A DNA stretch of 64,000 nt, taken from Actinomyces sp. HPA0247. GTDB lineage: Bacteria; Actinomycetota; Actinomycetes; Actinomycetales; Actinomycetaceae. The DNA is taken from assembly GCA_000411415.1 (NCBI GenBank), contig KE150450.1, forward strand, positions 1,066,932 through 1,130,931. Reading direction: 5' to 3'. Shown here piece after piece: positions 4,965 to 48,782 of the stretch. The translations under genes were made by a program, and so were the position numbers. The notes under the pieces are model-generated. The model was not told the origin of the DNA. It did no database searches and worked only from the letters and a program-made list of their open reading frames with translations. How positions within the stretch are numbered: position 1 is the stretch's first letter; each line of letters starts with the position of its first letter.

Positions 4965-5009
4965 AATTTCGCATGCAATTCCCCCACACCCCTTTCAAAT
5001 TCGAGTAGT
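4965..5009. repeat. 110-bp palindromic element, copy A (left part only, cut by the IS)
   Basis: AATTTCGCATGCAATTCCCC at 4965-4984 is the left terminal arm of the element found complete at six other places in this window. The copy stops where the IS256-family element begins. Its right half is not found on the other side of the IS. Confidence 0.75.
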
Positions 5010-6405
5010 GTCCCGCATAGTGGTGTAACCGTGTGGTGGTCGGCCCGTTTGATATGGGTGCGGTCACCGTGTGATCCTTCGAGAAAGCTCTCTACTTCTG
5101 ACTCGAAATGATTTGGAGGCACAACGATGACCGCTCCTCATATTATCGACCCTGCTGGCCTGCTTGGCGAGGCGTTATCCCAGGCGTCCCCGGATTTGAT
5201 GCGTTCCCTGCTCCAGCACGTGATTAACGCGTTGTTATCAGCGGACGCTGACACCGTGTGCGGGGCCCAGTGGGGCCAACAAGACCCGCAGCGTCAGACC
5301 AGGCGCAATGGGTATCGCTACCGGCCCCTGGACACCAGGGTCGGCACCATTGACGTGGCGATCCCCAAGCTGCGCTCAGGAACCTACTTTCCAGAGTGGT
5401 TGTTGCAGCGCCGCAAACGCTCCGAAAGCGCCTTGATCACAGTGGTCGCTGACTGTTACTTAGCGGGAGTATCCACGCGCCGCATGGACAAGCTCGTCAA
5501 AACCCTGGGGATCACAGGACTGTCCAAGTCCCAGGTCTCACGCATGGCAGCCGACCTGGACGAACACGTGGACGAGTTCCGCCATCGCCCCCTCCACGAC
5601 GCTGGGCCTTTCACGTTCGTCGCCGCTGACGCACTGACCATGAAAGTGCGCGAAGGAGGGCGCGTCGTCTCGTGCGCGGTCCTAGTTGCCACCGGAGTCA
5701 ACAATGACGGACACCGCGAAGTACTGGGGGTGCGCGTATCCACCAGCGAGACCGGTCCAGCCTGGAATGAGTTCTTCGCTGACCTAGTCGCCCGAGGCCT
5801 GACCGGCGTGCGCCTGGTCACCAGCGACGCCCATCTGGGCCTAGTTGAGGCCATCGCCGCCAACCTGCCCGGAGCCGCCTGGCAACGATGCCGCACCCAC
5901 TACGCCGCGAATCTCATGTCCGTCACCCCCAAAGCGCTATGGCCCGCCGTCAAAGCAATGCTGCACTCGGTGTACGACCAGCCCGACGCCGCCTCAGTCA
6001 ACGCTCAATACGACCGGCTCTTGGACTACGTGAACGACAAGCTCCCCGCCGTGTGTGACCACCTCGATCAAGCCAGGGCAGACGTCCTCGCGTTCGCATC
6101 CTTCCCCACCGGGGTATGGACCCAGATCTGGTCCAACAACCCCAATGAGCGCCTCAACCGCGAAATCCGCCGACGCACCGACTCCGTGGGGATCTTCCCC
6201 AACCGCCAGGCCATCATCCGCCTGGTCGGAGCCGTCCTCGCCGAACAAAACGACGAATGGGCAGAAGGCCGACGCTACCTCAGCCTCGACATCCTCACCA
6301 AATCACGACTCACACCCCAACCCACCCAACAGGAGGAACCCACACTCCAACTCAGCGCATAACCCACCCCGAAGGACACAAAACGATTACACCACTCCAC
6401 AGGAC
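5010..6405 (+). mobile_element. IS256-family insertion sequence
   Basis: A transposase gene lies between imperfect 23-bp terminal inverted repeats: 5010-5032 (GTCCCGCATAGTGGTGTAACCGT) and the complement of 6383-6405, with 17-18 of 23 positions shared (core AGTGGTGTAA). The element is about 1.4 kb, normal for the family. No 8-9 bp target duplication is seen. The left flank is a truncated repeat element and the right flank is unrelated, so a deletion or rearrangement probably happened at this IS. Confidence 0.85.
5127..6362 (+). CDS. IS256-family transposase
   Basis: This 411-residue mutator-type transposase cuts and joins DNA through a DDE site. The catalytic residues are D168 (FVAADALTMK), D234 (VTSDAHLGLV) and E341 (NNPNERLNREIRRR), with the family signature QRCRTHYAANLM between them. 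The usual N-terminal segment with RRNGYRYRPLDT and IPKLRSGTYFP is intact. GGAGG lies 8 nt before the ATG. Nothing is frameshifted, so the enzyme may still be active. The closest family types by eye are actinobacterial IS1081/IS1207-like elements. Confidence 0.95.
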   Translation: MTAPHIIDPAGLLGEALSQASPDLMRSLLQHVINALLSADADTVCGAQWGQQDPQRQTRRNGYRYRPLDTRVGTIDVAIPKLRSGTYFPEWLLQRRKRSESALITVVADCYLAGVSTRRMDKLVKTLGITGLSKSQVSRMAADLDEHVDEFRHRPLHDAGPFTFVAADALTMKVREGGRVVSCAVLVATGVNNDGHREVLGVRVSTSETGPAWNEFFADLVARGLTGVRLVTSDAHLGLVEAIAANLPGAAWQRCRTHYAANLMSVTPKALWPAVKAMLHSVYDQPDAASVNAQYDRLLDYVNDKLPAVCDHLDQARADVLAFASFPTGVWTQIWSNNPNERLNREIRRRTDSVGIFPNRQAIIRLVGAVLAEQNDEWAEGRRYLSLDILTKSRLTPQPTQQEEPTLQLSA

Positions 6406-6494
6406 TTGACCGGGGCGGTTTTTCTTTCACCCCAGCTCCATCCCGACCCACAGGCGGGACACAACTCACCCTGCTCGGCTCTATCAGCGCACAC

Positions 6495-6657
6495 GCGCGA
6501 AACAGTTCGCCCAGCGTCCTCTATTTCTGCTGCGGTGTGCGAAAAAGTTCGCCCTGCAAGCCCAAACGTGCGAAAAACGCTGTTTTCAGGCGTGCTGGGC
6601 GAGTTTTTTCGCGGAGATGTCGCTGGAGGGGCCGTGTCGGGCGAGTTTTTTCGCGCC
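6495..6657. repeat. Nested inverted repeat, GCGAAAAAGTTCGCCC family, copy 1
   Basis: Two direct arms (at 6495 GCGAAACAGTTCGCCC-like and at about 6537 GCGAAAAAGTTCGCCCTGC) are followed by two inverted arms (GCTGGGCGAGTTTTTTCGCGG and CGGGCGAGTTTTTTCGCGCC, ending 6657). Outer pairs with outer and inner with inner. The copy at 22923-23085 has the same length of 163 bp. Bases 6406-6494 and 6658-6841 hold no recognisable gene. Confidence 0.75.
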
Positions 6658-13160: not shown

Positions 13161-13258
13161 GGATAGGAAAAGCCGATCTGGATAGGAAGCGCTGATCTGG
13201 ATAGGTTATTTTCCTATCCGCAACGTCATAACCTATCCAGTTCGTGGTTTCCTATCCA
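13161..13258. repeat. Nested inverted repeat, GGATAGG family, copy 1
   Basis: Three direct arms (GGATAGGAAA, GGATAGGAAG, GGATAGGTTAT) are followed by three inverted arms (TTTTCCTATCC, ATAACCTATCC, TTTCCTATCC). The sequence CTGGATAGGTTAT pairs perfectly with ATAACCTATCCAG. A related array with the same 3+3 layout is at 48330-48430. Confidence 0.75.
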
Positions 13259-13290
13259 CTTCGTGGCCGCCCGTGTACGCGCGCAAACCC

Positions 13291-13370
13291 GATCATGCGC
13301 ACGTGGGCCCGATGATGTGTACGTGGGCCCTTTCACCCGCACGTGGGCCTGATGATGTGCGCGTGGGCAG
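13291..13370. repeat. Four tandem 20-bp units
   Basis: Four exact-period 20-bp units end in RCGTGGGCCC or a close variant (13291-13310, 13311-13330, 13331-13350, 13351-13370). An inverted half (GCCCACGCGCA) follows at about 13375. There is no spacer pattern, so it is not CRISPR. Confidence 0.8.
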
Positions 13371-13429
13371 CGCCGCCCACGCGCAAGTCATGCGGTTTAC
13401 GTGCGTATCGAGGGGTTAATGTGCAGTCG

Positions 13430-22297: not shown

Positions 22298-22410
22298 AAT
22301 TTCGCATGCAATTCCCCAGTAGCTTGTTCAAATATTGAATTTGCATCGTTGGAATTGCAACGTTTTCAGGGTTTGTTGAAATTTGGTCCAATCGAATTGC
22401 ATGCGAAATT
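22298..22410. repeat. 110-bp palindromic element, copy B
   Basis: The left arm AATTTCGCATGCAATTCCCC (22298-22317) pairs with the right arm GAATTGCATGCGAAATT (22394-22410). A central near-palindrome CGTTGGAATTGCAACG is shared with other copies. Confidence 0.85.
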
Positions 22411-22565: not shown

Positions 22566-22736
22566 CGGTACAAAATTCTCCCTGCTTGGCTTCTTGGTGG
22601 TGAGAACGGTATAAAACTCTCCCTGCATGCAGAACAAGCGCGAAATTGGGCCATTTCGGGGGAGCAGGGAGAATTTTGTACCGGACATGCGGTGAGAAGG
22701 GGAGTGCGGGGAGAGTTTTGTACCGGAGGGGCCCGG
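22566..22736. repeat. Nested inverted repeat, CGGTACAAAATTCTCCCTGC family
   Basis: Left outer arm CGGTACAAAATTCTCCCTGC (22566) and left inner CGGTATAAAACTCTCCCTGC. Right inner GCAGGGAGAATTTTGTACCG and right outer GGGGAGAGTTTTGTACCGG, ending 22736. This is the same 2+2 layout as the family at 22923 but unrelated arm sequence. Confidence 0.8.
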
Positions 22737-22922
22737 TGCGGTTCTTGTTGGGAGAGTTGTGTTGTGCTCTCGCGTAGTCTTTGTGCCGGTTGGTGGGCTT
22801 ATGGCAGTGCCCTGGCGCTGCTCATGGGCACTGCGGCTGGGCTCTCCGGGTCCTCCGGTGCCCCCCATGCCGGTGGGGCTGGGTCGCTGATGGGTAGTGC
22901 ACTGGAGGGCCTACGTCTGCAC

Positions 22923-23085
22923 GCGCGAAAAAGTTCTCCCTGCGTCGCTGGTAGATCGTGAAAGCGCGAAAAAGTTCGCCCTGCGCGCTCAAATTGGCCC
23001 AAATTTGGTGTTTTTGCGCTTGCTGGGCGAAATTTTTCGCGGAAATGTCACTGGAGGGCTGGTGTTGGGCGAAGTTTTTCGCGCC
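22923..23085. repeat. Nested inverted repeat, GCGAAAAAGTTCGCCC family, copy 2
   Basis: Left arms GCGAAAAAGTTCTCCCTGC and GCGAAAAAGTTCGCCCTGC. Right arms GCTGGGCGAAATTTTTCGCG and TGGGCGAAGTTTTTCGCGCC. Length is 163 bp, equal to the copy at 6495-6657, and the text between the two right arms is also alike. Confidence 0.8.
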
Positions 23086-23148: not shown

Positions 23149-23210
23149 TTGCACTACACGAAGCCTTCTGGCGGCGTGTCGCCGGCGTGTCGAACCCCCG
23201 TGTAGTGCAA
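23149..23210. repeat. Inverted repeat TTGCACTACACG
   Basis: TTGCACTACACG (23149-23160) pairs perfectly with CGTGTAGTGCAA (23199-23210). The inside holds two copies of GGCGTGTCG. A diverged copy in the other direction is at 63385-63460. Confidence 0.75.
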
Positions 23211-23265
23211 TTCCCCCCGATTGGTGGCGGTGAGCTCGCAGTTTGCGGTGGTGTGGCGCCCACAT

Positions 23266-47714: not shown

Positions 47715-47826
47715 AATTTCGCACGTAATTCCCCTGCGAGTACTTCAAATATTGAATTCATGTCGTTGGGATTGCAACGTTTTCGGGCTATCTCCAAAAG
47801 TGACCGTGGGAAATTATGTGCGAAAT
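47715..47826. repeat. 110-bp palindromic element, copy D
   Basis: The left arm AATTTCGCACGTAATTCCCC pairs with GGGAAATTATGTGCGAAAT. The arm change CATGCA to CACGTA relative to copy B is matched on the other side (with one wobble-type pair). The GC-rich repeat continues right after it (47840-47915). Confidence 0.85.
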
Positions 47827-47931
47827 GTGTCTGGGGCGGGCGCGTCGACTCGTTGTCCGGCCAGGCCCCGCCCCCGCCCACGGGCACCGCAGCCAGGCCC
47901 GGCGCGTTGCCTCACGGGCTGCTCTCCCATC

Positions 47932-48044
47932 AATTTCGCATGCAATTCCCCTGAGGGTATTTCAGGTCTTGAAATCTGATCGTTGATATTCTGCGGTTTT
48001 TGGGCTTGTGTTGGATCGTGCCGTGGGGGAATTGCATGCGAAAT
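47932..48044. repeat. 110-bp palindromic element, copy E
   Basis: The left arm AATTTCGCATGCAATTCCCC pairs perfectly with GGGGAATTGCATGCGAAATT. The middle is more diverged. A GC-rich repeat copy (48065-48125) follows. Confidence 0.85.
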
Positions 48045-48221
48045 TTGTCTGGGGTGGTCTAGGCGTTGCGTCTCGAAGCCCGGCCAGGCCCTGTCTCTGC
48101 CCGCGGGAGCCGCAGCCAGGGCCTGCGTTTCGCAGCCCGCCCGTGCCCTCCGGGCCCCTCCGGTGCCCTCCACAGTGGCGTGGCCACCAAGGGGCCGCGT
48201 TTTCGCTTGTTGATCGGTGGT

Positions 48222-48290
48222 ATTGCACTACTTAGGGAGGCATTGCACTGCCTAGTAGCTAGTGCATTGCTGCCCTATCTAGTGCATCGC
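48222..48290. repeat. Nested inverted repeat, TTGCACT family
   Basis: Two direct arms (ATTGCACTA, ATTGCACTG) are followed by two inverted arms (TAGTGCATT, TAGTGCATC). Again the 2+2 layout. Confidence 0.65.
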
Positions 48291-48329: not shown

Positions 48330-48430
48330 GCGGATAGGTTGTTGCTTCATGGATAGGTTATGAGCATGCGGATAGCTTATTTTCCTATCCGCGTGGCGAT
48401 AACCTATCCGCATCATCACAACCTATCCGC
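48330..48430. repeat. Nested inverted repeat, GGATAGG family, copy 2
   Basis: Left arms are GCGGATAGGTTGT, TGGATAGGTTAT and GCGGATAGCTTAT. Right arms are TTTTCCTATCCGC, ATAACCTATCCGC and ACAACCTATCCGC. The outermost pair (TTGT with ACAA) and the middle pair (TTAT with ATAA) match each other exactly, so arm changes are kept in register. Confidence 0.8.
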
Positions 48431-48512
48431 GCAGGGGCTTTCCTGGGCTCGGGTACCGCAAAAATGCTTGTCGCAGTGAGGTGTGCACCCGATCGGGAAG
48501 ATTCAACCCCTT

Positions 48513-48607
48513 CCGATCGGGTTGAATCCTGCCGATCAGGTTGAATCCTGCCGATCGGGTTGAATCCTGCCGATCGGGTTGAATCCTGCCGATCAGGTTG
48601 AATCCTT
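48513..48607. repeat. Five tandem 19-bp units
   Basis: The unit CCGATCGGGTTGAATCCTG (G or A at one site) is repeated at 48513, 48532, 48551, 48570 and 48589. An inverted half unit (GATTCAACCCCTTCCGATC) stands just before. No spacers, so not CRISPR. Confidence 0.9.
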
Positions 48608-48670
48608 CGGAAAGGCGTTCCCTTCTGAGCAGACGTGGCCTCGGCGCTGTGTCTAGCCCGGCGCTCACCC

Positions 48671-48782
48671 ATTTCGCACGTAATTCTCCCGCGACTCGTT
48701 CAAAACCTGAAATCGCATCGTTGGAATTGCAGCGTTTTAAGGCTGTCTTAAAAAGTTACCGGATTAAATTACGTGCGGAATT
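48671..48782. repeat. 110-bp palindromic element, copy F
   Basis: The left arm ATTTCGCACGTAATTC pairs with AATTACGTGCGGAATT; the centre has CGTTGGAATTGCAGCG. Bases 48783-48995 hold the promoter region of the next gene. Confidence 0.8.

Follow-up and report, generated by a model that had tools for sequence, protein, structure and literature searches.

Oral Schaalia carry dozens of intergenic repeat arrays, far above chance, in which arms occur several times in direct orientation and then inverted. The arrays have a regular layout and strict spacing. One class has A/T tracts in phase with the DNA helix, and in Schaalia odontolytica one kind clusters about the origin, with composites whose order is consistent along the chromosome. 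They were examined starting from the window, a stretch of 64,000 nucleotides (G000:C1:1066932-1130931) that is part of a 2.43-Mb, three-contig genome. Judging from the sequences, we lean tentatively towards reading the arrays as multi-site protein-binding scaffolds on phased, probably curved double-stranded DNA, with a role that is probably architectural. The main rival is that they are mosaic repeats of the BIME kind.

All of the arrays named in the original prediction (type 1, type 2, GGATAGG and TTGCACT) are present in the window where it had placed them. The type-1 element lies on the + strand at 22566..22725, with direct arms F1 and F2 at 22566-22585 and 22607-22626, a centre at 22627-22663 and inverted arms R1 and R2 at 22664-22683 and 22706-22725 (steps 41/37/42). 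The type-2 element at 22924..23083, also on the + strand, has the same steps (F1 22924-22943, F2 22965-22984, centre 22985-23021, R1 23022-23041, R2 23064-23083). The proposed layout of two direct and two inverted arms thus holds for both of these elements, but not for the array at 6455..6655 (+ strand), where a type-2 element at 6496-6655 has an extra type-1-like direct arm at 6455-6474, giving a 3+2 array with steps 41/42/36/42. Nor does it describe the GGATAGG arrays at 13161..13257 and 48332..48428 (no strand assigned to either), which are both 3+3 with steps 19/19/14/19/19, the third arm of the latter reading GGATAGC. The TTGCACT array at 48223..48287 (no strand assigned; steps 20/18/20) is 2+2, but it is a single example in which each inverted arm has one mismatch, and no second copy was found among the own-genome stretches scanned for it. 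GTACAAAATTCTCCC and GCGAAAAAGTTCGCCC, which had been presented as unrelated families, proved to be related subtypes. The claim that outer arms match outer and inner match inner was not borne out either: in 23 type-1/2 elements nested arms agreed at 16.65 and 17.22 of 20 positions and crossed arms at 17.17 and 17.00, and the spacers of 48 GGATAGG arrays are not nested-complementary (z 0.2 and -0.3). Same-side spacers in those 48 arrays are alike (z 8.9 and 6.3).

Types 1 and 2 belong to what we term layout A, in which arms of 20-21 bp follow the order F-F-centre-R-R. Across 56 islands from the own genome, G028 (S. odontolytica FDAARGOS_732) and G034, the F-to-R step was 37 bp in 86/98 cases and the same-orientation step was 41 or 42 in 196/208. 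Read on one strand, 23 type-1/2 elements of the own genome, chosen for a 37 step (leaving out two others that departed from the pattern), run arm, 41 (40 in one), arm, 37, inverted arm, 42, inverted arm; by eye, extra arms are mostly on the 42 side. Four arm sets use this layout, namely the related GTACAAAATTCTCCC and GCGAAAAAGTTCGCCC and, unrelated to these, TGTTACAAACGTCGTCA and TGAAACCGCCATCGCC. With arm ends that are our own cut, type 3 (TGTTACAAACGTCGTCAATCC) had a same-orientation step of 52 in 11/11 and an F-to-R step of 37 in 5/6, and type 4 (TGAAACCGCCATCGCCTTTGC) had a same-orientation step of 42 in 31/33 and an F-to-R step of 37 in 12/13. In composites of types 4 and 2 the R-to-F step is usually 67, which is also the most frequent R-to-F step overall (17/48). 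By eye, the type-2 arm GCGAAAAAGTTCGC is a quasi-palindrome, and the arms of types 1, 3 and 4 are not.

GGATAGG arrays, our layout B, are usually 3+3 with a period of 19. Same-orientation steps were 19 bp in 281/299 and the F-to-R step was 14 in 60/69 across 59 arrays. Among the 48 whose steps are exactly 3+3, the GGATAGG core is near-invariant and the spacers vary; the extended site is ATSYGGATAGGWWA. As a period of 19 bp does not correspond to whole helical turns, layouts A and B have the direct-then-inverted plan in common but differ in geometry. The argument that one layout with changing sequence points to a selected structure therefore stands in part: it gains from two more unrelated arm sets with the 37-bp centre and from strict, mostly helical spacing, but since GGATAGG and TTGCACT have another geometry, there is no single layout for all families.

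A scan for FFRR arrays by exact 8-mers, which misses the 22566 and 6495 arrays because they are too imperfect, returned three in the window (13160, 22924 and 48330) and 2 in 400 kb of the relative G028; 100 dinucleotide shuffles of the window and G028 stretches returned 0. The pattern TTCKCCCNGC-N(35-39)-GCNGGGMGA had 39 matches at 29 places in the own genome, 10 of these places on both strands, and its reversed control had 0 matches in the own genome and 1 over six genomes (in G025). The arrays recur elsewhere in the genome, as the original prediction required, with 47, 39 and 44 own-genome BLAST matches to the 22566, 6495 and 13161 arrays, counts that include partial and both-strand matches. 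A few arrays overlap our own ORF calls, and we take those ORFs to be spurious. Within the genus, the type-1 probe matched 7/35 genomes and the GGATAGG probe 12/35, the own genome included; with matches in part of the genus only, the arrays look dispensable. With one genome per species, the GGATAGG array pattern was found in 28 stretches, from S. odontolytica FDAARGOS_732, Schaalia sp. ORNL0103, Actinomyces bouchesdurhonensis and records titled Xylanimonas and Sanguibacter, the last two of which are probably mislabelled Schaalia. Two genus members lacking BLAST matches (G016 and G003) gave 0 arrays in 200 kb each by the exact-8-mer scan, which is weak evidence, as that scan yields 1 to 2 arrays per 400 kb in G000 and G028. 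Our searches of an open-access paper library showed no description of the arrays. GGATAGG pairs with 12-base spacing occur in six viral contigs (L127-L132), perhaps by chance.

The centres of layout A hold three A/T tracts phased at about 10.4 bp. In 32 non-redundant of the 59 unique centres examined, which include the 37-bp type-1 centre of the window (22627..22663, + strand), A/T-tract autocorrelation relative to letter shuffles was highest at lag 10 (z=16), with a second peak at lag 20 (z=8.7). Over whole elements (22 of the 23 of type 1/2, L012 left out), seven strong tract blocks at 12.8, 53.7, 74.9, 85.0, 95.4, 116.4 and 158.4 lie near whole multiples of 10.4 bp apart, on whole turns with a best period of 10.38; an eighth block above the cut, at 44.5, is weak (occupancy 0.32). 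In statistics that pool related elements, the distinct R-to-F spacings >40 bp (47, 56, 67, 77, 86, 97, 100, 109, 129) are phase-locked at 10.4 bp (p=0.0006), or at p=0.0037 when the value 22 is added, which occurs 4 times, is out of phase and falls below the 40-bp cut. The same-orientation spacings 42, 52, 62 and 83 are likewise phased (p=0.0017; 0.0022 to 0.0026 on recount), and F-to-R spacings alone show no helical phase (p=0.28). A wedge model gave the type-1/2 elements a contour to end-to-end ratio of 1.22, versus 1.085 for 300 random 160-bp windows (95th percentile 1.189). Model curvature exceeded that of >95% of own shuffles for 11/23 whole elements, 4/23 inner 77-bp parts and 11/23 centres, and the predicted curvature of these elements is moderate.

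In G028, where dnaA is at 262.5 kb, all 13 places with the strict type-1/2 pattern (13/13) lie within 416 kb of dnaA (KS p=4.8e-6), and one type-1 array missed by the strict pattern lies at -682 kb. The ten strict-pattern places of G034 range from -398 to +288 kb from dnaA. Origin confinement is clear for the strict pattern in these two genomes only; own-genome type-1/2 matches extend on C1 from about -390 to +437 kb, with others on C2, whose order is unproven. Long intergenic space was rejected as the cause of the confinement in G028, the difference being too small (intergenic fraction 0.137 in 7 near stretches versus 0.109 in 13 far stretches; long gaps 0.093 versus 0.060). The origin bias of GGATAGG arrays is weak (p 0.05-0.08), in position lists that merge near neighbours (27 of 40 in G011, 13 of 14 in G025) and use a rounded length for G025.

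Composite arrays follow a consistent order relative to the origin. Among 16 stretches of G028 that were read, 14 held both types, and type 4 was origin-proximal to type 2 at 14/14 (p=1.2e-4 if loci are independent). Both types were present in 10/11 stretches of G034, which represent largely the same ancestral loci as in G028, with type 4 origin-proximal in 10/10, and three C1 loci of the own genome with types 4 and 2 agree in order (L013 and L016 to the right of dnaA; L063 to the left). A polarity of the 41/42 steps that follows replication, seen on C1 of the own genome, was discarded, as it fails in G028 (2/4). The polarity of GGATAGG arrays (32/40), which we do not rely on, was scored post hoc on asymmetric centres, with symmetric or mixed centres omitted (those of G011 lacked clear polarity by eye) together with 8 like centres, of which one is from G031 and the others are from the own genome (6 on C2, evenly divided at 3/3, and 1 on C3; order unproven).

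Between orthologs, arrays differ by the gain or loss of exact units, as in the 13161 array, which has three F arms in the window and four in G011. Between G028 and G034, divergence per site was 0.063 in arms versus 0.106 in spacers (p=7.5e-5) over eleven blast pairs, two of which are paralogous and two cover no element; with the paralogous pairs removed, the values were 0.054 versus 0.093 (p=0.0008). Arms were less diverged than spacers in only 4/7 orthologous loci, which makes the scaffold reading slightly less likely and the mosaic-repeat rival slightly more. Centres diverge at 0.12, as much as spacers, noncoding DNA >300 bp away is less diverged (0.054) than arms (0.063), and gap columns are commonest in arms (0.149), partly from gain or loss of whole arms. 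We regard arm constraint as weak. Upstream of a dps-like gene, no island was seen in G011 and G031, where the flanks have diverged too far for an empty site to be defined.

Three explanations had been offered originally: paired protein-binding sites, a folded RNA, or ends handled by a shared enzyme. The first fits best. Handling by a shared enzyme is without support, as arm number varies between orthologs and a Y1/RAYT transposase (PF01797) was found in 0/35 genus genomes (2/58 of all genomes searched; 5/14 control genomes). Folded RNA is disfavoured, and it is very improbable that the arrays are transcribed long RNA hairpins serving as 3' ends, RNase III substrates or small RNAs. Their folding is strong (for the 22566 element z -9.8 on the + and -8.0 on the - strand; for the 13161 array z -8.1), but strong folding energy is expected of any inverted repeat. 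Differences between nested arms are more often G-U compatible (67) than of the A-C type (10), besides 64 transversions, but crossed arm pairs show a like G-U bias (65 to 7), and the strand concerned is rich in G+T (0.71 and 0.70 in unpaired spacers; 0.58 in flanks), a skew sufficient to explain the bias. The nested register is favoured neither by the type-1/2 arms nor by the GGATAGG spacers. Checked for covariation, helices were not kept by compensatory changes in 28 orthologous arm pairs of G028 and G034: single changes turned Watson-Crick pairs into mismatches 17 times and mismatches into Watson-Crick pairs 21 times, and no double change led from one Watson-Crick pair to another, the double changes being one from mismatch to Watson-Crick and one from mismatch to G-U. 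Gene strand and array orientation are unrelated in the own genome, and the window and six island loci have no Rfam matches at gathering thresholds other than tRNA.

Interspersed intergenic repeats are common in bacteria, and REP/BIME mosaics, as found in E. coli and others, are the closest known kind. They too are short intergenic alternating repeats in mosaic islands with tens to hundreds of copies, and the Schaalia arrays are intergenic, high in copy number and mosaics of alternating orientation, as demanded of REP/BIME. It is a serious possibility that the arrays are passengers with no cellular function, multiplied in permissive intergenic DNA through copying, gene conversion and the tandem duplication of units, and oriented by replication-strand-biased spread. 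Their presence in part of the genus only, the near-identical flanks at different loci (window 22880-22943 versus L027, by eye), the ortholog differences of exact 19-bp units, the likeness of same-side spacers, the mosaic arms and the weak arm constraint all speak for such an origin. If the arrays are selfish, they would be REP-like repeats that spread without RAYT. The lack of such a transposase in the 35 genus genomes, the quantisation of different spacings in helical turns and the sharing of one centre length by unrelated arm sets argue against passenger repeats, and the arrays also differ from REP/BIME in having m direct and then n inverted arms at fixed, mostly helical spacing; they resemble groups of protein sites on phased DNA more than an RNA. 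Nucleoid-occlusion and segregation sites (SlmA SBS, Noc NBS, ParB parS) are single short palindromes, and like the arrays they provide many protein sites biased to the origin half; the arrays differ in having four or more arms each and composites ordered along the replication direction. It is unlikely that the arrays are clusters of operators through which ordinary transcription regulators control the neighbouring genes. Repeated, sequence-specific sites between genes would suit operators, but the order of the composites follows replication, gene-pair orientations are used about equally (8/7/6/5 over 26 own-genome arrays, no preference) and distances to predicted genes run from tens of bases to >1.6 kb. 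In the own genome the arrays are not coupled to gene strand (13 versus 12 and 10 versus 15), and by a simple gene caller 4/8 G028 loci whose two neighbours share a strand run against it.

We hold it equally improbable that the arrays are strong sites of DNA gyrase or another wrapping protein, absorbing supercoils near forks. The elements are about 160 bp long and dyad-like with 10.4-bp A/T phasing, and gyrase strong sites such as the Mu SGS and the E. coli gyrase motif are likewise long modules with about 10-bp A/T-G/C phasing and centres of 36-37 bp; the E. coli motif covers 130 bp, of which the centre takes 36 bp, its G/C content is phased at 10 bp, and BIMEs too are bound by gyrase (PMC6379681). 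In the published motif, however, the periodic parts flank the centre, whereas the Schaalia phasing is densest in the centre, and gyrase would not be expected to need four fixed-sequence 20-bp arms or different arm sets, of which the arrays have four kinds. The TAACTGA repeat sets of Beggiatoaceae, described in PMC4679880 as short intergenic direct repeats in many sets with one exception, differ from the Schaalia arrays, which are direct and then inverted.

In the scaffold reading that we favour, a sequence-specific protein would bind each 20-bp arm or each GGATAGG site, different arm sets being read by different, perhaps paralogous, proteins. In the class with 37-bp centres, the A/T tracts of arms and centre would lie on one helical face, so that the centre probably bends and may let the inverted arm groups assemble one nucleoprotein complex. 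Most likely, such complexes would serve chromosome architecture in the origin half or mark that half. The fuller proposal, that helically phased scaffolds with interchangeable protein-binding arms, a bent 37-bp core and a fixed order away from the origin organise the origin half of the chromosome in oral Schaalia, is doubtful. Were it correct, nearly base-pair-exact helical spacing, exchangeable arms, origin confinement and replication-direction order would together offer a handle on chromosome organisation in a small actinobacterium. A saturated transposon library has been published for S. odontolytica XH001, the host of the epibiont TM7x (PMC12369343), and with this library removal and binding tests look feasible.

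Other repeats lie near the arrays in the window. An inverted pair, TTGCACTACACG / CGTGTAGTGCAA, at 23150-23212 adjoins the type-2 element and by eye also occurs in L027. At 13268-13400 a 20-bp direct array (CACGTGGGCCCGATGATGTG) is followed by inverted units, with similar arrays in L009, L010, L011, L013, L054 and L063, and at 48480-48610 lies a 19-bp array of CGATCGGGTTGAATCCTGC whose left end carries an inverted copy; the own-genome loci scanned contain no other example. A repeat of about 110 bp that has AATTTCGCATGCAATTC at its ends and palindromes inside, among them CGTTGGAATTGCAACG and TTCAAATATTGAA, is present at 22300-22410, 47717-47827, 47934-48045 and 48670-48782 (the copy at 48670 by eye only); its end-to-end step is 93 or 94 in most listed copies and 71 in two. 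Judged from text common to other copies, an IS256-type element (Transposase_mut) at about 5003-6411 is inserted inside one such 110-bp repeat, and long matches to this element also occur in G011, G020, G023, G025 and G028.
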